Assembly (NCBI RefSeq): GCF_001279695.1
Contig: NZ_LGDD01000036.1
Span: 1-64,000 of the forward strand
Direction of reading: 5' to 3'
Length of the DNA: 64,000 nt
Source: Streptomyces sp. WM6378
Lineage (GTDB): Bacteria; Actinomycetota; Actinomycetes; Streptomycetales; Streptomycetaceae
Numbering within the stretch: the first letter of the stretch is position 1; every line of letters starts with the position of its first letter. The notes under the pieces are model-generated. The model had not been told where the DNA came from and ran no database searches. It saw nothing but the letters and a program-made list of their open reading frames with translations. A program made the position numbers and the translations under genes. Below are positions 17,344-29,968 of this stretch, piece by piece.

Positions 17344-17949
17344 TCACGTGGTGGCGGGCTGGCGCGACTTCGCGGACATCGCCATGGCGTGCTCGACCAC
17401 CCCGACGAGGATCTCCTTGACGGACTCGCGGACCCGAGCGTCGCACATCAGGAGCGGCACCTCGGGGTCGAGGTCGAGGGCCGCGCGTACGGTGTCGACG
17501 GGGTAACGGGCCGCGTCGTCGAAGCAGTTGACGGCGACGGTGAAGGGTATGCCGCGCCGTTCGAAGTAGTCGATGCCGGCGAAGCAGTCCTCCAGGCGGC
17601 GGGTGTCGGCGAGGACGACCGCGCCGAGCGCCCCCTGCGCCAGCTCGTCCCACAGGAACCAGAACCGGTCCTGGCCCGGGGTGCCGAAGAGGTAGAGCAC
17701 CAGGTCCTCGCGGAGCGTGATGCGCCCGAAGTCCATGGCGACCGTGGTGGTGCTCTTGCCCTCCACGCCCGCGAGGTCGTCGACCGGGCGGCCCGCCTCG
17801 CTGAGGCGTTCCTCGGTGCGCAGTGGCCGGATCTCGCTCACCGCGCCGACCAGGGTGGTCTTGCCGACGCCGAAGCCGCCGGCGACGAGGATCTTGAGCG
17901 TCACCGGATCGACGTGCCGCTTCCTGCGGCTAGAGCGCCCGAAGGCCAT
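17344..17949 (-). CDS. cvnD: Conservon small GTPase-like protein CvnD
   Basis: 201 residues. P-loop GGFGVGKTTLVGAVSEI near residue 18, a switch-like TTTVAMDFGRI, and GTPGQDRFWFLWDEL in the G3 position (DXXG replaced by GTPGQ, as usual for CvnD); AVNCFDDA takes the place of NKXD. It is the last gene of a conservon and overlaps cvnC by 20 bases. Conservons work as a membrane-linked complex thought to resemble eukaryotic G-protein signalling. Confidence 0.92.
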   Translation of the reverse strand: MAFGRSSRRKRHVDPVTLKILVAGGFGVGKTTLVGAVSEIRPLRTEERLSEAGRPVDDLAGVEGKSTTTVAMDFGRITLREDLVLYLFGTPGQDRFWFLWDELAQGALGAVVLADTRRLEDCFAGIDYFERRGIPFTVAVNCFDDAARYPVDTVRAALDLDPEVPLLMCDARVRESVKEILVGVVEHAMAMSAKSRQPATT

Positions 17950-18373
17950 TGATCACCTCGCGGAGAAGGGACTCGTCCGGCAGCTCGGCCGGCGGAACGG
18001 GTCGGGTTACGTGCACCAGGGCGTCGGCGACGAGATCGCCGACCAGGACCCGGACCACCCCGACGGGGAGGTCGAGCCCGGCCGCGAGCTCGGCGATCGA
18101 CTGCGGGGAGTCGCCACAGCGTTCGACGATCTCCACGTGTTCCGGGGAGAGCGTCTGGTCGCGGCCCGGGTCGTCGGCGGCGGGTTCCGGGACGACCACG
18201 GCGATCAGGTCGAGACGGTGCTGGCCGACGCTGGTGGTGCGGCCGCGCGTCATGGCGTACGGACGCACCACCGGCCCCGCGTCGTCGTCGAACCAGTGGT
18301 GCGGCCGCCCCGGGGCCGCTGCCCCCGACGGGTCGCGCAGCCGGTCCTGGGCCCGCTGGTCTGCGTCACTCAT
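17930..18373 (-). CDS. cvnC: Conservon DUF742 protein CvnC
   Basis: 147 residues. The C-terminal DUF742 domain contains RPYAMTRGRTTSVGQHRLDL and a winged-helix-like stretch EHVEIVERCGDSPQSIAELAAGLDLPVGVVRVLVGDLVADALVHV. It acts between the roadblock protein and the GTPase of the conservon. It overlaps cvnD by 20 bases and lies 28 bases after cvnB. Confidence 0.92.
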   Translation of the reverse strand: MSDADQRAQDRLRDPSGAAAPGRPHHWFDDDAGPVVRPYAMTRGRTTSVGQHRLDLIAVVVPEPAADDPGRDQTLSPEHVEIVERCGDSPQSIAELAAGLDLPVGVVRVLVGDLVADALVHVTRPVPPAELPDESLLREVINGLRAL

Positions 18374-18401
18374 CGCGTCCCCCGCTCATGACGTACCCCA
18401 C

Positions 18402-18845
18402 TCACCCTCCGGTGTGCAGGCCGGTCCGTGGTGCGGTGGTCAGATGGACGCCGACCCGCTTGACCATCAGTGTCATCTCGTACGCGACCTGTCCGACGTC
18501 GGAGTCGGCGTCGGACAGGACTGCCAGACAGCTGCCGTCGCCGGCGGCCGTCACGAAGAGGAAGGCGTCGTCGAGTTCGACGACGGTCTGGCGGACCTTG
18601 CCCGCCTCGAAGTGGCGGCCGACGCCCTTGGCCAGGCTGTGGAAGCCGGAGGCGACGGCGGCCAGGTGCTCGCCGTCCTCGCGGGTCAGGTCGCGGGAGG
18701 TTCCGGTGGCGAGGCCGTCGCTGGAGAGCACCAGTGCCTTGCGGATGGAGCCGACGCGGTCGACCAACTCGTCGAGAAGCCAGTTGAGTTCGCCGGAACC
18801 GCTCCCTGCGTTGCGTGCTGCGGCTGAGTCCTGTGGCGCGGTCAT
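18402..18845 (-). CDS. cvnB: Conservon roadblock/LC7 protein CvnB
   Basis: 147 residues with one roadblock/LC7 domain (LNWLLDELVDRVGSIRKALVLSSDG through LAVLSDADSDVGQVAYEMTLMVKRVG). Related to MglB, a GTPase-activating partner of MglA-type GTPases; by analogy it may act on CvnD. The start codon overlaps the cvnA stop (ATGA), indicating translational coupling. Confidence 0.93.
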   Translation of the reverse strand: MTAPQDSAAARNAGSGSGELNWLLDELVDRVGSIRKALVLSSDGLATGTSRDLTREDGEHLAAVASGFHSLAKGVGRHFEAGKVRQTVVELDDAFLFVTAAGDGSCLAVLSDADSDVGQVAYEMTLMVKRVGVHLTTAPRTGLHTGG

Positions 18846-21694
18846 CGACCGTCCCCCTCCGGTGTGGTTCGTCGTGCGGTGTCGCCCCGGGCGGGCGCGG
18901 ACGGTCCTTCCGCGGTGTCCGGTGCGGCGTTCTGGCGGCGGCCGCGTTGCCAGCCGCGCTGCAGTGCGGCCATGCGGTCGCGCACCTCGTCGGCGTCGCG
19001 CTCCGGCTCGGGCCCGTCGTCGGACTCGGGGCCGGGGAGCCGACCGTCGGGGGCGCCCTTGAGCTGGGGGGCCAGGCTGGCCTGGCGGACCCGGCGGGGC
19101 AGCCCGCCCAGCGGGGTCTCGTCCTCGGGCCGCTGCGGCCCGGGCAGGCTGCCCCAGGACGGTGCGGAGCTGGGCGCGCCCGGCAGGTCGGCCGGGTTGG
19201 CGGGCCCCGACCCGGGCGGCTCGGAGAGGCCCGCGGGCTTCACCGGCGTCAGTCCTGACGGCGCGGGCGCGGGCCTGAGGGACTGCGGGGCCCCGGGAGT
19301 CGAGGACCGCGGCGGCTGGGGCGTACGGCGTTCGGGCAGCCGGTTCCCGAAGGCGCGGCCCTCCGCGGGGGCCGGGTCCGGGTCGGGGGCCGGGTGGCCG
19401 CGTCCGGGGCCGTCCACGCGCCGGCCGTTGTCGCTGACCAGGGTCGGCACCCGGTGGCGGCGCGGCAGCGGCACGGGACCCTGCTCCTCGCCCTCGTCGG
19501 CGGCCTGCTGGTGCTGCTGGCGGTCGTCGGCCGGTTCGGGCACCCGGCGGGCCGAGCGGAGGAGTCCGCCGCGGGACGCCTCGATCTCGTCGAGACCCGG
19601 GGGCGCTTCGAGAACGGAAGGCACCTCCAGGCCCAACTGGTCGAGCGGCGGCTCCAGTTCGACCGGTCCGTCCAGGACCGACTGGCCGGGGATGCCGACC
19701 GGCAGCGGGGAGAGCGCGCGGCGCGGCGCGTCCGGGACGCTCTTGCCGTCGCCCTTGGCGGCCTTGCGGTCGAGCCGGAACCCGGTGCCCTCGGTGTCGG
19801 GCGCGTCAGTGAGCAGCGTCGCCGGGATGAACACGACGGCGGTGGTGCCTCCGTACGGAGACGGCTGGAGCGAGACGCGTACGTTCTGGCGCTGGGCGAG
19901 CCGGCTGACCACGAACAGGCCGAGCCGGTCGGTGTCGGAGAGCTCGAACTCGGGGGTCTCGGCGAGCCGCAGGTTGGCGTCGAGGAGCATCTCCGGGGCC
20001 ATGCCGAGGCCGCGGTCGTGGATCTCCAGGGTGAAGCCGTTGGCGACCCGCTCGCCGTGCACCTGGACGGCGGTGTGCGGGGGCGAGAACACCGTGGCGT
20101 TCTCCAGGAGTTCGGCGATCAGGTGGGTGAGGTCGGCGACGGCCGGGCCGCCGACCCCGAGCCTGGGCAGCCTGCGCACCTCGATGCGCTCGTAGTCCTC
20201 GACCTCGGCGACCGCGGCCCGTACGACGTCCATGAGCTGGACGGGCTTGCGCCACTGGCGGGAGGGAGCCGCGCCGGACAGGATCACCAGGCCCTCGGCG
20301 TGCCGGCGCATGCGGGTGGTGAGGTGGTCGAGCCGGAAGAGGTCGGCGAGCTCGTCGGTATCCTCGGTGCGCCGCTCCATGGTGTCCAGGAGCGTCAACT
20401 GGCGGTGCAGGAGCACCTGGTTGCGGCGCGCGAGGTTGACGAACACCTCGGAGACGCCGCGGCGCATGTCGGCCTGCTTGACGGCGGCCTCGACGGCGGC
20501 GCGTTGCAGGGTGTTGAGGGCCTGGCCGACCTGGCCGACCTCGTCGCGTTCGTAGTCGAGGCGCGGCGCCTCGGTCTCGACGTCGACCTGTTCGCCGGCG
20601 GCGAGGCGGCGCATCACGCTCGGCAGCCGCACGCCGGAGACCTCGTGCGCCTCCTTACGGAGGCGGGTGAGGTCGCGGATCAGCTCGCGGCCGACGCGTA
20701 CGGACATGAACAGCGAGATCAGCAGCGCGAGGAAGCCGAGCACGCCGGCGAGCCCGGCCTTGATGAGCACGTTGAAGGCGACCGGCTCGACGCGGTCCTG
20801 GTAGCGGTTTCCGGCCTCGGTGCCCATCTGGGCGAGGTGGTCGAGGACGGGGGTTGCGGCCTGCTGCCAGCGGGCGGCGTCGATGTGCCGGGGGTCCTTG
20901 GCGGGCCCGGCGTCGATGATGGCGGCCTCGGCGGTGCGCAGGGCCTCGGTGTCGGGGCCGCGCCAGTACTGCTCGAAGACGTCGCGTTCGGAAGCGGGCA
21001 GGATCTCCAGGTTGGTGTCGTAGAGCAGCTGCCGGTTGGCCACCAGGTCGGAGATCCGGCGCAGTTCGGGGGCCGTCGTCTTCGGAGTGATCAGCGAGGA
21101 GGCCACGAGGGCGTCCTCGCGCGACAGCATCTCGCGGGCCCGGGTGATGCCGACGAGCGCCCGGCCCTGCTTGTCCATCTCCACGTTCTCCAGGGCGTGG
21201 AGATTCATGAGGAAGCTGTAGCAGGGGTCGACGAGGCGGTTGTAGAACTCCAGCGCCTGCTGCCGGTCGACACTGCCCTGGTCGATGGACTGGCGCAGCG
21301 AGGCCATGGAGTCGAAGCCGTCGAGCACGGCCTTGAGCCGGGCCTTCGCGAGGGGCTGGAGGTCGCCGCGGACGTCCGAGTCCTGTGCCGCCGCCCGGAT
21401 TTGGGCCATCTCGGTGTCGGTGGCGGAGCGGCGGCTGCGCAGCGCGGCGAGGGCGTCGGACGGGCGCTCGTCGGCGAGGTAGACGAGGGTCTGGCGGCGC
21501 TCCTGCTGGATGACGCGGACGGTGTCCTCGATGGGGTAGCCGACCTTCTTGACGATGTTCGCCACGTCCAGCAGCTCGTTGGCCTGCCGGCCGGTGAGAT
21601 AGGTGGAGAACCCCCACAGCGCGGTGAGGGAGACGAGCGGCACGAGCAGCAACGCCACGATCTTCCTGCGGATGGACTTCCCGCGAAAGCGCAT
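18842..21694 (-). CDS. cvnA: Conservon sensor histidine kinase-like protein CvnA
   Basis: 950 residues from ATG 21694, which has a GGGGGAGGCC ribosome site. A membrane helix at about 12-32 is followed by an extracytoplasmic nitrate/nitrite-sensor (NIT)-like helical domain, a second helix (FNVLIKAGLAGVLGFLALLISLFMSV) and a HAMP region. A DHp-like segment (RLDHLTTRMRRHAEGL) and a HATPase domain with N box HLIAELLENATVFSP and G box DRGLGM come next. The last 280 residues are proline-rich and probably disordered. No response regulator follows; the partners are CvnB, CvnC and CvnD. The input signal is unknown. Confidence 0.93.
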   Translation of the reverse strand: MRFRGKSIRRKIVALLLVPLVSLTALWGFSTYLTGRQANELLDVANIVKKVGYPIEDTVRVIQQERRQTLVYLADERPSDALAALRSRRSATDTEMAQIRAAAQDSDVRGDLQPLAKARLKAVLDGFDSMASLRQSIDQGSVDRQQALEFYNRLVDPCYSFLMNLHALENVEMDKQGRALVGITRAREMLSREDALVASSLITPKTTAPELRRISDLVANRQLLYDTNLEILPASERDVFEQYWRGPDTEALRTAEAAIIDAGPAKDPRHIDAARWQQAATPVLDHLAQMGTEAGNRYQDRVEPVAFNVLIKAGLAGVLGFLALLISLFMSVRVGRELIRDLTRLRKEAHEVSGVRLPSVMRRLAAGEQVDVETEAPRLDYERDEVGQVGQALNTLQRAAVEAAVKQADMRRGVSEVFVNLARRNQVLLHRQLTLLDTMERRTEDTDELADLFRLDHLTTRMRRHAEGLVILSGAAPSRQWRKPVQLMDVVRAAVAEVEDYERIEVRRLPRLGVGGPAVADLTHLIAELLENATVFSPPHTAVQVHGERVANGFTLEIHDRGLGMAPEMLLDANLRLAETPEFELSDTDRLGLFVVSRLAQRQNVRVSLQPSPYGGTTAVVFIPATLLTDAPDTEGTGFRLDRKAAKGDGKSVPDAPRRALSPLPVGIPGQSVLDGPVELEPPLDQLGLEVPSVLEAPPGLDEIEASRGGLLRSARRVPEPADDRQQHQQAADEGEEQGPVPLPRRHRVPTLVSDNGRRVDGPGRGHPAPDPDPAPAEGRAFGNRLPERRTPQPPRSSTPGAPQSLRPAPAPSGLTPVKPAGLSEPPGSGPANPADLPGAPSSAPSWGSLPGPQRPEDETPLGGLPRRVRQASLAPQLKGAPDGRLPGPESDDGPEPERDADEVRDRMAALQRGWQRGRRQNAAPDTAEGPSAPARGDTARRTTPEGDGR

Positions 21695-22036
21695 GGCCTC
21701 CCCCAGATCAACCGTCAACAAACGGCGTGAGCCTACTACTGACACACAGACAACTCGAAGGCACGTCCGGGCGATTTTCGGCCGCCGTCGCGGACGGTGA
21801 TCATGAGTTGTCCTGGTATTCCGGGAGATGACGACCCGGTCCCTGGCCGAGGACACCCGCCATGGCGGCTTTTCGACCACTGTGGCAGATGGCTGGAATT
21901 CTGCGTTCCGGGCAAATCCCGGGAATCTTCGGGGAGTTCCGTTCGTCTGTCTGTGCGGGAGGTCTGTTACGGGATGTCTGATGCGGGGGTATCTGTGGGG
22001 GGCATCGGGGCTCCGCGGGCGGGGAGGATTGAAGGC
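21695..22036. other. Divergent promoter region, 342 bp
   Basis: It separates cvnA (minus) from a small membrane protein gene (plus). No gene is supported. It is moderately less GC-rich than its flanks and must hold both promoters. A GGGGAGG ribosome site precedes the gene at 22037. Confidence 0.4.
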
Positions 22037-22495: not shown

Positions 22496-25400
22496 TCAGG
22501 CGGGCTTCTTGAACATGCGCGTCGCGGTGATCTCGCCGTGCACGGTCTCGCCCGCGGTGTCCTGCTGGGGCAGGCCGGGCCGCAGGTGCTCCTCGACGCT
22601 GATGTACTTCAGGCCCGCCCTGAGGTCCGCGTCGTTGCGCAGCCGGATCACCAGGGGGAACTCGGCGAGCGCGGTCGTGTCGAACAGGCCCGTGGTGTAG
22701 AGGAGTTGGACACCGAGCGCGTCGGACACGGCCCGCTGGAGCTCCAGGAGGTATGTCGCATTGGCGCGGCCGATCGGGTTGTCGAGGAAGAGCGTCCCGG
22801 CGTGGCGGTGCTTGTCCCGGCCGCGGTCGTTGCTGCGCAGCGCCGCCATCGTGCAGTAGAGCGCGATCGCGGCGGTGAGCAGCTGGCCGCCGGAGAACAC
22901 GTCGCCCATCTGCCCGACGGGGACGCGCTCGGCGCGCAGCACCGCGTCCGGCTTGAGGATCTCCACGGAGATGCCGCGCGGCTCAAGTGCCGCCTGCACT
23001 CCGCGCAGCAGCAGGGACATGCCGTCCCTGCGCATGTCGGAGTTCTTCTTGACGGCGGCGCGGGTGGCCTCGTCGATGACCTCGCCGAGCCGTTCGGTGA
23101 GGGTCGCCTGGTCGGGTTCGTCGAAGCGGATCCGCAGGAATTCCTGCCCCGACCATTCGCCGAGGCCCTCGGGGAGCTGGGAGAGGCGCTGGGCGGAGCG
23201 GAGCGTGGTGAGCGCCGAGTCCACCAGGCCGCGCAGCCGGTCGACGATGGAGTCGCGGTTGCGCTCCAGCTGCTCCAGCTCGTCGGTCAGGACGCGCAGC
23301 CGGGGTTCGAAGGCGGCGGCCCAGGCGGCGGCGTGCTCGGGCAGAGCCGCGGCGGGCAGTTCGCGGATCTGCTGGCGGGCCGGGGTGCGGACCTGCTCGT
23401 AGCGGGTGGCGTTGGCGTGCCGGACCAGGATGTCGGACGCCTCGCGGACCGCGGAGTCGGCGGCCGAGAGGTCGCCGGAGCAGCCGCGCAGCGAGCGGCG
23501 TGCCTCGGCGGCGGACTGCCGGGCCTCCTCCAGGCTGCCCGGGTACGGCTCGGGGGCGCTCTCCTCGTCCGGGCCCTGGCTGTTGTCCCGCAGCAGGTCG
23601 CGCAGCAGCGCGGCCGTCTCGTCGAAGCCGCCGGCCGCGTCCTCGGCGGCCCGGTGGGCGGCGAGGAGTTCGGCATGGGCGGCGCGCGAGGTGTCCAACT
23701 CGTCCGTGCGCGCGGCCAGTTCGCTGGTCGCGGTACGCAGCAGGGCCTGGGCCTGCTCGGCGTCGGCGGGCACCTGGTCCTCGGGGAGCTCGGTGTGCGT
23801 CTCGCCGTCGGCGGGTGCCAGGCGTTCGGCTTCGCCACGCAGTCGGCCGAGCTGCTCGCTCGCCGTGGACGCCCGGGTCTCCAGCATCTGTACGAGCGAC
23901 TCGGCGCGGGCGGCGGCCGCCTGGCGGGAGGGGCCGTCCGCACCGTCGGTGCCTTCGAGGAGGGTGGCGGCGCGGGTGCGCACCTTGTTGGTGAGGCGGT
24001 CGAGCTCGGCGAGAGCCGCGCTTTCGTCGCTCTCGGCTCGGGCCTGTTCGGCTCGCAGATCGGCGCCGACGCCGACCTTCTCGTACAGCTGGGACGCGGC
24101 GCGGTAGGCCTCGCGCAGGGCGGGCAGTGCGGCGCGCGGGGCGTCCGCGTCGGGCTCCGGCAGGGTTTCGGGTGCGCCCGCGATCTCGGCGCGCTCGGCG
24201 CGCAGCGCGCGGGAGGTGCGGTGGGCGTCGTCGGCGGCGCGCTGGGCGGCGCGGCGGTCCTCGTCGGCGGCCTTGGCTCGCTCCAGGAACGTCTGGGCGC
24301 GGGCCTCCGACTCGGCCGCGTCGTCGGCGAGTTCGCGGAGTTTGACCTGCCAGCCGGCCCGCTCGCGGAGCCGGTAGGCGAGTCCGGCCAGCGCGTCGGC
24401 GGCGCGCCGGGCGCGCTGGGCGGCCTCCTGGCGCTCCTCGCGTACCCGTGCGGTGTCGGCGGCCGCCTCGTCCGCCTCGGCCCGTACGGTGCGGGCCTCG
24501 GTCAGTTCCTGTGCGGCTTGCCCGGCGGCCTCGCGGGCGCAGTGGGCGGCGGTGGCAAGCTCGGCGAGCATGCCGGGCGGGCAGTCGGCGCGCCAGGATC
24601 CGATGCGGGCGGCGAGCGAGCGGTCCCCGGTGAGCCGGGCGGCCAGCGTACGGATCTCCTCGTCGCGGGCGGTGGCGCGGGCGCGCAGCGTCTGGCGCTC
24701 CTCGTCGGCGGCGCCCTCGTCGTGCATGGCCGGGTTCGGCGGGACGAGGAAGATGCCGCTGTCACCGCCCGAGTCCGCGGCGGGAACGGGCGCGAGCAGC
24801 GCGGCAGTTGTGCCGACGGCCACCGCGGAGCGCGGCAGCAGCGCGGCGCTTGCGAGGGCCTCGCGGGCCCGGGCGTGCGAGGCGGGGTCGGTGATCACCA
24901 CGCCGTCGACGAGCTCGGGGCGGGCCGCGAGCACCGCGGCGTGGTCGGCGGGGGCCACGGCCTGGGCGAGGTAGCGCCAGCCGGGCAGCGCCGGGATGCC
25001 GTGCTCGCCGAGGTACTCGACCGTGGCGAGGACGTCCGGACTGGGCGGCAGCAGCCCGCCGTCGCCGAGGGCGCCGAGGATGCGCGCGTCGTCGGCGGCG
25101 GCCGTGCGCAGTTCGAAGAGCTGGCGCTCGGCGGAGGCGATGCCCTGATCGAGGAGGGCGCGCAGTTCATCCGCAGTTCGGTCCAACTCCTCGGCGGTGA
25201 GCGGGCTTTGGGCGCCTTCACCGTCGGGCCGGCGCGGGCCGGGCACGGAGGCCGGGGCTCCGGGCAGGCTGAGCAGTTCGGCCAGGCGCTCCTGTGACGC
25301 GATGGATTCGGCGGCGCGGCGCTCGGCGTCGTAGGCGTTCCCGGTGGCTCGGGCGGCGTCCTCGGCGCGGGCCGCTGCCAGTTCGGCGCGGGCTTCGACG

Positions 25401-27103
25401 GAGGCGGCTTCGCGGGCCCGGTCGGCGGCGGTGCGGGCGGCTTCGCGGGCCGCGTCCCAGCCGGCCACCGCGGTCTTCTCGGCGTCGCTGGCGGCGAGCG
25501 CGGCGCGGGCCGGGTCGGCGTCCGGCGCGCTGTCGTCGAGCCATCCGGCGCGTACCGCCTCGGCGGTCTCCTGCTCGACCTCCGCCAGGCGCTGGCGCAG
25601 GTGCCCGGCCTCGCTGCGGGCGCGCTGGGCCTCGGTCGCGGCGGCGGTGGCGTCGCGGTGGGCGGCCTCGCCCGCTTCCTGGAGGCCCGCGGAGCGCTCT
25701 TCTTCCTCGGCCGCCACGCGCTCGCCGTCCTCGGCGGCCGCGTGCAGGGCCCGTACGAGATCGGCGGCGGCCTTGGCGCGCGCCGCCAGGGCGGGGGCCG
25801 CGTCCCGTTCGGCCTCCTGGATGGCGGCGGCGACGCGCGCGGAGCGGTCGGCGGCGGCCCGGTGGCGCAGGACCGCCTCGGCGGCCTGCCAGGCGGAGTG
25901 CAGCGTACGGGCGTCGGCCAGTTCGCGGCGCTGCGCGGTGGCGGCCTTCTCGGCGACGGCGAGCGCCAACGAGGCGTGCCGGTAGGCGAGTTCGGAGGCG
26001 ATCAGGGAGCTGCGGCCGCGCGTCTGCTCGGCGAGGGTGACGTGGTGGGCGGCGGCGGTGACCTGCTGGGCGAGGTCGGTGGCGCGGCCCCGCTCGTCGG
26101 CGGCGCGGGCCGAGAGGCGGCGGGCGAGGGTGCGGGTGCGCCGCTCGGCCCCGGCGTGGACGTCGCGGGCGCGTGCCCGGGTCTCGGCGGCTTCGACGAT
26201 GCGGTTCAGCAGGTCCACCGAGCCCGCGGTGAAGTCGCGTTCGGCGGTGAGTTCGGCGCGGCGGCCGAGCTTGTTGCCGAAGCCGCTGACCAGGTCGGCG
26301 AGCCCGTCGGTGTCGCGGGTGTCGGTGACCGCGCGAAGCAGCAGGTCGGTGAAGTCGGAGTCCTTCTTGACCGCGAACAGGCCCGCGGCCTCGCCCTCGT
26401 CGGCGTTCATCTCCCGCTGGTAGCGGAAGAGTTCGGGGTCCAGACCCAGGTCGCCGAGGTGTTCGTTCCAGCGGTCGTGGATCTCCTCCCAGTACACCTC
26501 CAGGTGCGGGTACGCCTTGGTCGCCTCCGTGATGGCGTCGCGGAAGCCCTTCATGGTGCGGCGGCGGCCCTGGGCGCCCGAGGCACCTTCGGCGGACGGC
26601 CGCATCGCGCTGGACTCGGCGACCGGCAGCGAGTCCAGGCTGAGCCCGGGGCCCGGCCGGAACGAGTACCAGGCCTCGGCGAACTTCCGCGGGTCGTTGG
26701 AGACCTGGCGGCCGCGCCATTCGCTGACCTTGCCGACCACGACGAGCTCGCCGGTGAGGGTGTGCTGCCACTCCAGGGCGACGTGCCCGCAGTCGTCGGC
26801 GAGCAGGAACTTGCGCAGCACGCCGGAGCTCGCGCCGCCCAGGGTGTTGCGGTGGCCGGGCAGCATCACCGAGAAGATCAGCTTGAGGAGTACGGACTTG
26901 CCGCCGCCGTTCTCCAGGAAGAGCACGCCCGCGGGCGCCGGGCGGCGCGGCGGGCCGACCGGCTCGTCCTCGAAGAACTCGGCCTGCGCGGGGGCCGGGT
27001 TGGGCACGGGCGCGCCGACTCCCCGCAGGTCAAGCACGGTGTCGGCGTAGCGCGCACCGGCAGGCCCGATGGAGTAGAGGCGGACCCGGGACAGCTCGTA
27101 CAT
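22496..27103 (-). CDS. SMC/MukB-like ATPase of a three-gene condensin-type system
   Basis: 1535 residues. The N-terminal head contains LFLENGGGKSVLLKLIFS: Lys69-Ser70 are kept, but the first P-loop glycine is Leu63. Very long alanine/glutamate/arginine-rich coiled coils cover roughly residues 300-1370. The C-terminal head has the ABC signature FSGGQ (1403-1407) and Walker B TLFLDNPIGRAN, where the usual catalytic glutamate after Asp1441 is Asn1442. Expected role is DNA loop extrusion or plasmid/chromosome handling with the two upstream genes. Classical Smc and RecN lack this head layout. Whether the Asn abolishes hydrolysis cannot be told from sequence. It lies 40 bases after the KITE-like gene. 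Confidence 0.85.
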   Translation of the reverse strand: MYELSRVRLYSIGPAGARYADTVLDLRGVGAPVPNPAPAQAEFFEDEPVGPPRRPAPAGVLFLENGGGKSVLLKLIFSVMLPGHRNTLGGASSGVLRKFLLADDCGHVALEWQHTLTGELVVVGKVSEWRGRQVSNDPRKFAEAWYSFRPGPGLSLDSLPVAESSAMRPSAEGASGAQGRRRTMKGFRDAITEATKAYPHLEVYWEEIHDRWNEHLGDLGLDPELFRYQREMNADEGEAAGLFAVKKDSDFTDLLLRAVTDTRDTDGLADLVSGFGNKLGRRAELTAERDFTAGSVDLLNRIVEAAETRARARDVHAGAERRTRTLARRLSARAADERGRATDLAQQVTAAAHHVTLAEQTRGRSSLIASELAYRHASLALAVAEKAATAQRRELADARTLHSAWQAAEAVLRHRAAADRSARVAAAIQEAERDAAPALAARAKAAADLVRALHAAAEDGERVAAEEEERSAGLQEAGEAAHRDATAAATEAQRARSEAGHLRQRLAEVEQETAEAVRAGWLDDSAPDADPARAALAASDAEKTAVAGWDAAREAARTAADRAREAASVEARAELAAARAEDAARATGNAYDAERRAAESIASQERLAELLSLPGAPASVPGPRRPDGEGAQSPLTAEELDRTADELRALLDQGIASAERQLFELRTAAADDARILGALGDGGLLPPSPDVLATVEYLGEHGIPALPGWRYLAQAVAPADHAAVLAARPELVDGVVITDPASHARAREALASAALLPRSAVAVGTTAALLAPVPAADSGGDSGIFLVPPNPAMHDEGAADEERQTLRARATARDEEIRTLAARLTGDRSLAARIGSWRADCPPGMLAELATAAHCAREAAGQAAQELTEARTVRAEADEAAADTARVREERQEAAQRARRAADALAGLAYRLRERAGWQVKLRELADDAAESEARAQTFLERAKAADEDRRAAQRAADDAHRTSRALRAERAEIAGAPETLPEPDADAPRAALPALREAYRAASQLYEKVGVGADLRAEQARAESDESAALAELDRLTNKVRTRAATLLEGTDGADGPSRQAAAARAESLVQMLETRASTASEQLGRLRGEAERLAPADGETHTELPEDQVPADAEQAQALLRTATSELAARTDELDTSRAAHAELLAAHRAAEDAAGGFDETAALLRDLLRDNSQGPDEESAPEPYPGSLEEARQSAAEARRSLRGCSGDLSAADSAVREASDILVRHANATRYEQVRTPARQQIRELPAAALPEHAAAWAAAFEPRLRVLTDELEQLERNRDSIVDRLRGLVDSALTTLRSAQRLSQLPEGLGEWSGQEFLRIRFDEPDQATLTERLGEVIDEATRAAVKKNSDMRRDGMSLLLRGVQAALEPRGISVEILKPDAVLRAERVPVGQMGDVFSGGQLLTAAIALYCTMAALRSNDRGRDKHRHAGTLFLDNPIGRANATYLLELQRAVSDALGVQLLYTTGLFDTTALAEFPLVIRLRNDADLRAGLKYISVEEHLRPGLPQQDTAGETVHGEITATRMFKKPA

Positions 27104-27143
27104 GTCGGCGGACTCTCGTGGTGGTGGGGGGCGGGAAGCGGGG

Positions 27144-28052
27144 TCAGGAGTGGAACGGCAGCCCGGCGTCGGCCGCCAGTTCCAGGTCGTCGGCGTCGGT
27201 CGGCGGGAGCAGGGTGGCGCCGCCGTCGGTGACCGCGACCACGCCGAGCTCGATCAGCTCGGACAGGGCGGCGCTGCCCGCCATGTCGCGGACCTGCAAC
27301 TGGTAGCGGGCGGTGGTGCGGTAGGCGCCGCCCGCGTCGTCTCCGGTCCGCTGGAGGAAGCCGGACTCGGTGAGGAAGGCGACGGCCTTGGCGACGATGC
27401 CGGTGGTCGATCCGGCGAGCCGGCGGGCGTCCTTGGTCGCGCCGGTGGAGCTGCGCCGCGCGTAGATCCGCCAGGCCGCCTCCAGGCCGGGGGCGCCGCT
27501 CTCGGGGTCGGTGTTCTCGCCCACCTCCTCGGCCCGTTCCTCCAGGCGGCGGCAGGCCTGCCGCACGAAGGCGTCCACGCCGTTGACGGTGATCCGGCCG
27601 ATGTAGCCGTCGTCGGCGAGGTCCTCGGGCCGGGGGTACGCCATGGCGGCGACGGCGAGATGGGCCAGGCCGTGCAGGAAGCGGTCGGCGGAGTCGGGGG
27701 CGGCGGCGCGGCGCGCGTAGTCGCCCATGCGGACGGCGAAGACCGAGTCCTCCGCGGCCGTCACGGCCATGCCGGCGCGGGGCGACACCTCCAGGACGAT
27801 CAAGCCGAGGCCGGCTGCGACGGCGTCCGCGAGGCGGGCGAACGCGGGGTCCTCGCGGTGGCGCCTCAGCAGCTCGCTGTACTCGGCGTCCCTGGCCGGG
27901 AGCAGCTTGGGCTGGAGGCCGAAGGCGACGAGCCGCGCGGCGTCGGCGGCGTCGGCGGGGGTGATCCGGCCTTCGCCGCCGGTGCCGGTCGCGGCGGGCG
28001 CCGGGGCCTCGGCGTCGTCGCCGAACGCGGGCTCGGGGTGGTGGTCGGTCAC
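27144..28052 (-). CDS. KITE-like winged-helix subunit (MukE/MksE/JetB-like), 302 residues
   Basis: GTG start with an AAGGAGA ribosome site 8 bases upstream. A short acidic N-terminus precedes a helical region. The C-terminal part looks like winged helices: TGIVAKAVAFLTESGFLQRTG, then YRTTARYQLQVRDMAGSAALSELIELGVV. By position between a kleisin-like and an SMC gene, and by size, it matches the MukE/MksE/JetB role of bridging SMC heads and kleisin. The family call is inference from context plus fold-like pattern. I do not recognise a named domain. Confidence 0.7.
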   Translation of the reverse strand: MTDHHPEPAFGDDAEAPAPAATGTGGEGRITPADAADAARLVAFGLQPKLLPARDAEYSELLRRHREDPAFARLADAVAAGLGLIVLEVSPRAGMAVTAAEDSVFAVRMGDYARRAAAPDSADRFLHGLAHLAVAAMAYPRPEDLADDGYIGRITVNGVDAFVRQACRRLEERAEEVGENTDPESGAPGLEAAWRIYARRSSTGATKDARRLAGSTTGIVAKAVAFLTESGFLQRTGDDAGGAYRTTARYQLQVRDMAGSAALSELIELGVVAVTDGGATLLPPTDADDLELAADAGLPFHS

Positions 28053-28179
28053 GGGTGCTTCTCCTTGGTGCGTACGTTGCCGAGCGGGGCGGGGTGGGCG
28101 CCTGCGGCGGGGTTCTCCCCCACCCCGCCCCTTCCCGCTGTGACACTCAGCGGCTCCGCCACGGGCCTCCGGCGGTTAG

Positions 28180-28340
28180 TGGGAAAAGGGAGGGTGTTCG
28201 TTCTGGGGGCTCCGCCCCCAGAACCCCGCGGGGGCTGCGCCCCTCGACCCCGCTGCGGGGTCAGATCCAGCCCCTCCGGCGTTTGAGGAGCGGGTGTTCG
28301 GGGGCCGAGCCCCCGGAGCAGGGGTGCAGGCGGCGCAGTC
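28180..28340. repeat. Dispersed GC-rich hairpin repeat, copy A
   Basis: It fills most of the 310-bp gap between the KITE-like and kleisin-like genes. Hairpins: TTCTGGGGGC/GCCCCCAGAA (28201-28223), GGGGC/GCCCC (28231-28243), GACCCCGC/GCGGGGTC (28246-28262) and CGGGGGC/GCCCCCG (28299-28315). Between the last two lies the core CAGCCCCTCCGGCGTTTGAG (28268-28287). The same core occurs in opposite orientation at 54645-54666 with the same flanking hairpin layout. This is a common Streptomyces intergenic repeat. Inside this operon it could act as an attenuator or mRNA stability element. Confidence 0.85.
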
Positions 28341-28362
28341 CCCGCCGGGTCCGGGGCGAACC

Positions 28363-29889
28363 TCACGCCGCCTCCGTCCGGCCCGCTGCCATCCCCGCCG
28401 CGTCGAGCAGCGCCGTGCCCACGATCAGGTCCGCGCCGCCGAACTCCGGGTCGTCCAGCTGGGTTCCGTCGTCCACGGCGAACAGGAGGCGTTCTTCGCC
28501 CTGGCGGTACGCGGTGCCGACCGGCGGGCTCGCCGCGTGGACCGCCAACAGGGCGACCAGGTACGGCAGTTCGGGGTCGAGGCGGCGGGCCTCGGCCAGC
28601 AGGCCCGAGAGACGGCGCGGGGCGTCGTGCTCCAGGTCGAGCAGTTCCATGGCGGCGGCGAGCTGCTCCTCGCTGAACCGGCTGTCGTCCGGGGTGGCGA
28701 TCAGGTCCGGCTCGGGCATCTCCGCGCCGAGGTGCTCGCGCTCCATGGGCGGCGTGAGCAGTATGTCCACCAGGTCGCCGACCCGTACGGACACCGGGGT
28801 GCGCAGGCCCGTGCCGCGGGCGAAGAAGGCGTCGGTGACGCGGATCGCCTGTTCCACCGGGAGCGGCAGCACGGGCGCGACCAGCTGTCCGTACAGGTCG
28901 AGGCCGGAGCGGGCGGCCGGGCGGGCGAAGGCCTGGCGGTCCTGTTCCGCGCGGAAGAGCGGGCCGGCCTCCAGGAGGCGGGACTGGAGCTGGGTGTGGC
29001 GGCGGATGCAGTCCTTGACGATGTCGACGAGCTCGGCGGCGCGGCGCTTGTGCTCCGGGTCCTCCGCCTCGTCGCGCGCCTTGCGGATGTTGGTGAGGAT
29101 CGCGTTCTCGTGCCGGTAGCGGTCGGCGACGTGGTCGAGGGCCTCGGCGATCATGTCCGGCACGGCGTTGAGCCAGTCGACCGCGCGCACGTTGCGCCGC
29201 GTGGCCTCCAGGGTGCGCCGCAGCGTCTCGGCGTACTGCACGGTGCGGTAGCGGGCCTGTTCGGCGGCGAGCTGGGCGTCGGCCAGGCGGCCGCGGCTGA
29301 TGAGGACCTCCAGCTTGACCTCGGCCGCGATCTGGGCGCTGGTGACGTCGGTGTCGAGGGCGCCCACCAGGACGTTGACGGCCTCGTCGGTGGTGCGCAG
29401 GTACACGGCGCCGCCGTAGCCGGGGACCTCTTCGAGGAGCTTGAAGTCGTAGTCCCTGCGGACGTAGACCCCGTCCGGGTTGAACGTGCCGTACACCGCG
29501 CGGAAGCCGCGGTCCACGCTGCCCACGTTGATCAGGTTCTCCAGGACCCAGCGGGCCACCCGCTCGTGCTCGGCGGCGGGCCGGGCCGGCGCCTGGGCGG
29601 CCACGCGCGGGATGAGCCGGGCCACGATCTGGTCGTGGTCGGCGCCCGTGTCGAAGTCCATGTTCAGCGTGACGAGGTCGATGGAGGCCAGGGCCACCTC
29701 CGCCATCGCGTACACCGAGTACTCGCCCGCGAGGTTGGCCTTGCGCACGTCGAGGTCGTGCAGCGGCGCGGTGCACGCCAGCGCGCGCAGACGCCGCGCG
29801 AGCCCCTCGTCGGCGGCCGGGCCCGGTGCGGGGCGCGCCGCCGCGCTGAGCTGGGGCGGAACGGGTTCCGTCGAGGCAGGCGAAGTCAC
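28363..29889 (-). CDS. Kleisin-like subunit (MukF/MksF/JetA-like) of the condensin-type system
   Basis: 508 residues from GTG 29889. Residues about 20-200 could hold winged-helix and helical segments (VARWVLENLINVGSVDRGFRAVYG). A long helical middle (AEQARYRTVQYAETLRRTLEATRR, then AILTNIRKARDEAEDPEHKRRAAELVDIVKDCIRRHTQLQSRLLEAG) matches the helical bundle seen in MksF/JetA proteins. A mixed C-terminal domain ends LIVGTALLDAAG. GTG 29889 is preferred to TTG 29919 because TAATCT (29899-29904) could be a -10 giving a leaderless start; this is uncertain. First gene of the SMC-like operon. The kleisin assignment is contextual. Confidence 0.72.
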   Translation of the reverse strand: MTSPASTEPVPPQLSAAARPAPGPAADEGLARRLRALACTAPLHDLDVRKANLAGEYSVYAMAEVALASIDLVTLNMDFDTGADHDQIVARLIPRVAAQAPARPAAEHERVARWVLENLINVGSVDRGFRAVYGTFNPDGVYVRRDYDFKLLEEVPGYGGAVYLRTTDEAVNVLVGALDTDVTSAQIAAEVKLEVLISRGRLADAQLAAEQARYRTVQYAETLRRTLEATRRNVRAVDWLNAVPDMIAEALDHVADRYRHENAILTNIRKARDEAEDPEHKRRAAELVDIVKDCIRRHTQLQSRLLEAGPLFRAEQDRQAFARPAARSGLDLYGQLVAPVLPLPVEQAIRVTDAFFARGTGLRTPVSVRVGDLVDILLTPPMEREHLGAEMPEPDLIATPDDSRFSEEQLAAAMELLDLEHDAPRRLSGLLAEARRLDPELPYLVALLAVHAASPPVGTAYRQGEERLLFAVDDGTQLDDPEFGGADLIVGTALLDAAGMAAGRTEAA

Positions 29890-29968
29890 GGTGGACAGAT
29901 TAGGTCCTCGCACTGACAACGGTCGAAACGGCGCAGAACAGCCCGCTGCCCACGGCCTCTCGCAGTGG

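Follow-up and report, generated by a model that had tools for sequence, protein, structure and literature searches.

A JetABC trio without JetD, of apparent type III Wadjet origin, lies behind a DNA-damage-type promoter in Streptomycetaceae

Research on Wadjet, the plasmid-killing JetABCD system, has so far dealt mostly with type I (PMC10586767). Wadjet is reported in 42% of actinobacterial genomes and towards the chromosome ends in Streptomyces (PMC10482375). MksBEF of Pseudomonas aeruginosa contributes to chromosome organization and was likely derived from JetABCD through loss of the nuclease JetD, and an origin of MukBEF-like condensins from defense systems is an open proposal (PMC10586767). 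In Corynebacterium glutamicum, MksBEFG acts in plasmid defense and has a nuclease, MksG, that is linked through the kleisin (PMC10123090). Here we analyze a jetA-jetB-jetC locus of Streptomyces sp. WM6378, found in a stretch of 64,000 nucleotides (contig NZ_LGDD01000036.1, positions 1 to 64,000; hereafter the window). Like MksBEFG it encodes an actinobacterial system of kleisin, KITE protein and structural maintenance of chromosomes (SMC) ATPase, and it differs from MksBEFG in the absence of a nuclease partner. We read it, with a probability of about 0.6, as a nuclease-less descendant of type III Wadjet that has become a fixed, damage-responsive chromosome-maintenance complex of Streptomycetaceae.

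Searches of the source genome (9,485,127 bases in 361 contigs) with JetD_C (PF09983), DUF3322 (PF11795) and JetD3 (PDLC00594) gave no match. PDLC00594 is a suitable probe, since it scores 317–409 bits with three JetD proteins whose genes follow jetC in accessory loci from other Streptomyces, and PF09983 and PF11795 do match the C. glutamicum control. Among core loci containing the jetC end plus at least 1.5 kb beyond it, JetD was found beside JetC in 0 of 21 from Streptomycetaceae and 0 of 7 from Frankiaceae; one Frankiaceae locus counted as lacking D (L047) has roughly 0.4 kb masked downstream of jetC. JetD follows JetC in all 21 fetched accessory or foreign loci having A to D. No replacement fourth gene was found beside A-B-C: neighbors differ between the two families, and the neighborhoods of 20 Streptomycetaceae and 10 Frankiaceae loci have only A-B-C in common (A called in 29 of 30). 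The preliminary description of the window had proposed a trio without nuclease in a core-chromosome setting. The missing nuclease is confirmed at the locus and genome-wide; neither the distant JetD that it suggested looking for nor the JetD routinely adjacent in close relatives that it named as contrary evidence came to light.

On the distribution of matches, the trio is core in Streptomycetaceae and full JetABCD systems are rare second copies elsewhere in the genome. Of 150 Streptomyces genomes, 147 have a jetA match (146 of the 147 high-quality ones), the best match reaching E ≤5.2e-180 in 146 of them and only 7.9e-70 in G121. Across Streptomycetaceae it was present in 120 of 121 genomes and in 17 of 17 genera; a weak match in G395 belongs to an accessory JetABCD locus (L132). 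This near-universal presence agrees with the core-chromosome setting supposed beforehand and is not the patchy distribution of an accessory defense system. Class-wide, PDLC00588 matched 35 of 246 genomes, which fall in 6 of 103 genera, namely Streptomyces, four genera of Frankiaceae and one with a marginal match (E 6.9e-4). JetD3 was matched at E ≤0.001 in 21 of 150 Streptomyces genomes and strongly (E <1e-40) in 11; the ten weak cases (E 2e-7 to 8e-4, partial profile) were not scored as JetD. Strong matches were found in 10 of the 121 Streptomycetaceae genomes. All 11 strong-JetD3 Streptomyces genomes contain at least two jetA matches and retain the core trio's jetA, so the core trio and JetABCD do not appear to replace each other. 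In these genomes, JetD is on another contig than the core copy or at least 0.3 Mb away from it. More than one jetA match was seen in 13 Streptomyces genomes, two of which (G119 and G128) have no JetD3 match. In G323, a JetD3 gene with a short detected jetC remnant (L124, 10011-11924) is apparently a decayed accessory Wadjet; the core trio is kept in that genome.

Judged from its sequence matches, the trio consists of JetA, JetB and JetC of type III Wadjet origin and is Wadjet-derived, not a complete Wadjet. It resembles type III Wadjet in its A-B-C order, in full-length matches to the PADLOC JetC3 and JetA3 profiles (scores in Table 1), in a homologous JetB (BLASTP E 1e-49 to 1e-57 against JetB of five JetABCD loci) and in the LDNP Walker B of JetC. 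In contrast, type III Wadjet has JetD and a patchy distribution, and the GLPFH tail described below was not found in JetD-bearing JetB. PADLOC JetB3 profiles did not match the window JetB; they also miss or barely reach JetB from JetD-bearing Streptomyces loci. None of the three proteins had an above-cut-off match in Pfam or NCBIfam. In the PDB, a single-sequence query with JetC matched only flagellin, at E 0.11, and profile searches with JetB and JetA gave no SMC-related match. The best fold matches are suggestive, with MukE/JetB for JetB and MukF-like proteins for JetA. The kleisin and KITE assignments made earlier for the 508- and 302-residue products are therefore upheld by their closest folds, and neither product turned out to be without such a fold.

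A kleisin, a KITE protein and an SMC protein without a nuclease is also the composition of MukBEF and MksBEF, whose MukE and MukF are the nearest folds. Profile searches did not place JetC in the MukB/MksB family, its best PADLOC family being JetC3. Unlike MksBEF and MukBEF, the trio appears to have a type III parent, coexists with a canonical SMC, the gene for which is also present in this genome, and sits behind a damage-type promoter. Because its parent is of type III, we infer that JetD was lost here independently.

A jetA tree of 70 rows is compatible with this history. In it, 48 of the 49 rows without D (34 from Streptomycetaceae and 14 from Frankiaceae) fall in one clade with support 97/92 amid JetD-bearing branches, and two state changes are enough. 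The 49th row, from Cellulomonas timonensis, is joined to an Amycolatopsis copy that bears D (99/94). Nine jetA rows were excluded by name: the duplicates L085, L095, L102, L106 and L109, L042 with its D on another contig, and the core rows L088, L096 and L098 without good reason; rows under 300 matched residues and L001-L040 were also kept out. That JetD was lost, rather than never gained, would be the simplest history, loss being the simpler direction because distant branches in the tree set bear D. Streptomycetaceae and Frankiaceae are not close kin, so that this history requires either many losses or transfer from one family to the other.

The SMC machine itself appears to be preserved. Walker A, ABC signature and Walker B motifs are all intact in core copies. 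In Walker B, the position of the catalytic Glu usual for ABC and SMC ATPases is taken by Asn, in nuclease-less and JetD-bearing copies alike; since JetD-bearing copies share it, this residue following the Walker B Asp appears to be characteristic of the family. The motif scan found no LDNP-type Walker B in a few divergent JetC copies from loci with JetD. Positions invariant among JetD-bearing copies (at least 90% in the rows used, the six most divergent rows not being used in defining invariance) are largely retained in the core trio, with 82 of 85 in JetA, 36 of 37 in JetB and 141 of 155 in JetC, or 259 of 277 in total. Ratios of nonsynonymous to synonymous substitution rates (dN/dS) of 0.08-0.33 between core pairs indicate that the core trio is under purifying selection.

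The C-terminal tail of JetB, which usually reads LAADAGLPFH, contains GLPFH in all of the best 120 of 1203 homologues. GLPFH is present in 40 of 40 Streptomycetaceae core loci. It is missing from all 17 Frankiaceae loci compared and from all 23 others, which comprise the Cellulomonas copy and 22 JetABCD systems, and is by this comparison a clade-specific novelty of Streptomycetaceae core JetB. The N-terminus of JetB is mostly close to the domain in JetD-bearing copies and has a variable extension in core copies. The JetD-contact motif described at the type I JetB N-terminus (available text of PMC10586767) was not traced in type III in a search by eye. The idea that GLPFH copies the tip of single-stranded DNA-binding protein (SSB) was not retained: DEPPF is the end of the SSB-like frame beside rpsF, whereas in JetB the Phe is followed by His and more.

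The sequence preceding jetA points to control by DNA damage. The RecA-NDp consensus has been given as tTGTCRgtg-8 nt-TannnT (PMC5656591). The window site matches TTGTCRGTG-N8-TANNNT exactly, in a leaderless arrangement (Table 1). The genome has 36 exact sites, compared to 0 for a reversed-pattern control. Thirty of the 36 had fetched loci and were read, and nine of these precede recA, uvrB, radA, recD2, a YoaA/DinG-family helicase gene, dnaX, a RarA-like ATPase gene, ung and an AlkZ-like glycosylase gene. Family models confirmed these nine repair or replication genes, and the distance to the start codon is 6–9 bp (53 bp for ung). The gene facing uvrB resembles ogt by eye only, the fragment having no NCBIfam match.

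The promoter is also fixed in position among relatives. In 30 aligned upstream regions, the conserved block ends a few bases ahead of the jetA start codon. Of 42 core loci, 34 have a score of 10 of 12 or more in the stretch before jetA (15 are perfect), compared to 0 of 840 single-base shuffles; L085, L088, L095, L096, L098, L100, L102, L106, L109 and L113 were left out of this scoring as duplicates or by thinning, as were identical or too short upstream stretches. A strict jetA-specific pattern, drawn from the 30-region alignment and not independent of it, is found in 111 of the 150 genomes, with exactly one copy per genome, and its reversed control gave 0. Of these matches, 110 abut the core jetA start, with coordinates compared by eye, and the exception, in G028, is on another contig. 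A further block directly upstream of the promoter is conserved before core jetA. Inspection by eye did not show it at the other promoter sites listed, and it is possibly bound by a second regulator.

The genome encodes a PafC-type protein (PF19187, 110.4 bits against a cut-off of 32), a match that falls short of proving PafC orthology, as 3 of 14 control genomes also have a PF19187 match above the cut-off. The RecA-NDp-type promoter of S. rimosus recA is inducible by ultraviolet light (UV), and 67 S. coelicolor genes are similarly marked (PMC2375139), a list that may already include the jetA orthologue. SCO6735, which has a promoter of this type, shows a 5-fold rise after UV (PMC5087735). The trio shares the exact promoter consensus of the RecA-NDp/PafBC regulon and would be a member by sequence only. 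The regulon members that the available text of that literature names do not include an SMC complex.

Several observations weigh against this interpretation. All fold matches of JetA and JetB have E >0.001, the root of the jetA tree was not inferred, and several JetD-bearing branches in it are long. Regarding the promoter, several of the genomic sites precede genes without known repair link (PrsW, HAD, DUF4253, amine oxidase and X-Pro peptidase-like), 8 of 42 core loci score below 10 of 12, 39 of 150 genomes are without the strict jetA pattern, and many core promoters read TGTCAGACC instead of TGTCAGTG. None of 13 Frankiaceae copies without D reaches 10 of 12. Disruption of SCO6735 produced no clear damage-sensitive phenotype (PMC5087735). 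According to the available part of another study, an initial search suggested that conservation of the PafBC motif of M. smegmatis does not extend to S. venezuelae (PMC9380542); unlike in that statement, the RecA-NDp/PafBC motif is abundant in Streptomyces sp. WM6378. The main doubt is that a promoter like this one often precedes accessory JetABCD as well, and this would agree with a defense role. Among 23 non-core loci, nine reach a score of 10 of 12 or more for the same motif (accessory type III loci L041, L042, L119-L122, L126, L130 and L131), the 23 being JetABCD copies, L042 included, plus L114, the Cellulomonas copy without D. Because of these nine, damage control would not be confined to the nuclease-less form and may have a use in defense. 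The motif before accessory jetA suggests that Wadjet itself in Streptomyces may be damage-induced.

Under the reading that we prefer, a type III JetABCD would have lost JetD and become a fixed chromosomal complex. DNA damage would expose single-stranded DNA, upon which PafBC would switch the jetABC operon on. As its likeliest job, a JetABC dimer would then extrude chromosomal DNA loops with ATP, like MukBEF or MksBEF, and this loop extrusion, with no DNA being cut, would contribute to the holding, segregation or repair of damaged chromosomes, beside the canonical SMC. The GLPFH tail may dock a partner that replaced JetD. A predicted DNA-looping machine that is built like a plasmid-killing system, has no cutting enzyme and lies behind a damage-type promoter in nearly all Streptomyces genomes of the set suggests a passage from defense machine to genome maintenance. 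A bolder version, which we put forward tentatively and hold to be rather doubtful, is that a plasmid-defense SMC was converted into an SMC complex devoted to DNA repair and forming, in bacteria, a functional counterpart of Smc5/6. It would be a damage-controlled loop extruder whose invariant JetB tail recruits a new partner, possibly a repair enzyme, instead of JetD.

The preliminary description had left housekeeping DNA organization and a stripped-down plasmid restriction system side by side; the former is favored here, although not proved. The damage-type promoter, the JetB tail and the coexistence with true JetABCD copies are new with respect to that description. A role against plasmids or other foreign DNA could be imagined in which JetABC would recognize circular DNA through loop extrusion. 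The DNA would then be passed to an unlinked nuclease or a silencing factor, for which the JetB tail might be the docking site, and the promoter would be an alarm for incoming single-stranded DNA. The retention of residues invariant among JetD-bearing copies fits such a role, as does the similar promoter of the nine non-core loci, nearly all of them full JetABCD. Nevertheless, the genome has no JetD, presence of the trio is near-universal, unlike that of a defense system, and the strong-JetD3 genomes all keep core jetA without mutual replacement. We regard this role as unlikely, if still deserving attention.

Less probable again is that the trio serves sporulation or ordinary chromosome folding as a second, constitutive condensin, for which the promoter motif would be incidental. 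The core status of the trio and the purifying selection on it would be expected of such a complex, and MksBEF of P. aeruginosa is a precedent (PMC10586767). However, this would leave to chance an exact, positionally fixed damage promoter that is common to recA, uvrB, radA and other repair genes. That the trio is a decaying remnant of Wadjet after nuclease loss is hardly credible. A few relatives do have core-type jetC split between frames (L057/L106 from Frankia sp. QA3, L136 from G397 and L144 from G010), by decay or possibly by sequencing error, but core jetA identity is 82-94% among the matches listed, the ATPase motifs are intact and dN/dS is well below 1. Operon decay was rejected on the motifs and dN/dS. 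The damage-responsive maintenance complex is the interpretation that we favor.

One genus shows both states, core nuclease-less JetABC beside rare full JetABCD. As Streptomyces is genetically tractable, the proposal of a defense origin could be tested there by deletion and swapping. The locus points to a second Streptomyces SMC complex besides canonical SMC, under a damage-type promoter. The available text of two Streptomyces SMC papers makes no mention of a second SMC complex, and no literature on core nuclease-less or damage-regulated JetABC of Streptomyces was found among the matches listed, as far as the available text of these goes. Table 1 gives the positions of the genes and motifs.

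Table 1. Genes, motifs and upstream elements of the JetABC locus in the window
Feature	Positions	Strand	Remarks
jetA-like, kleisin, 508 residues, GTG start	28363..29889	-	PADLOC JetA3 624.3 bits; MukF-like fold matches
jetB-like, KITE, 302 residues	27144..28052	-	
jetC-like, SMC ATPase, 1535 residues	22496..27103	-	PADLOC JetC3 1394.9 bits, residues 1-1534
C-terminal JetB tail DLELAADAGLPFHS	27147..27188	-	GLPFH conservation across homologues
JetC Walker A, NGGGKS	26894..26911	-	
JetC ABC signature, FSGGQ	22883..22897	-	
JetC Walker B, LFLDNP	22775..22792	-	Asn replacing usual Glu
RecA-NDp/PafBC-type promoter TTGTCAGTG-CGAGGACC-TAATCT (TTGTCAGTG-N8-TAATCT)	29897..29919	-	exact consensus match; 7 bp, then jetA GTG
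Conserved block GCGCCGTTTCGACCG / GCGCCGTTT directly upstream of promoter	29920..29934	-	30 aligned core upstream regions

A conservon-like cluster at 17930-21880 adjoins jetC, with open reading frames that by eye are sensor kinase-like, roadblock-like and DUF742-like. Such a cluster is next to jetC in many, not all, Streptomycetaceae loci; as it was not seen in several of them, the conservon was rejected as an obligate partner. The spacer between jetA and jetB (28053-28362) is 310 bp long, and those of L050, L051 and L053 are shorter, with roughly 100-155 bp. The spacer contains GC-rich, palindromic-looking sequence and is possibly an intergenic repeat element.

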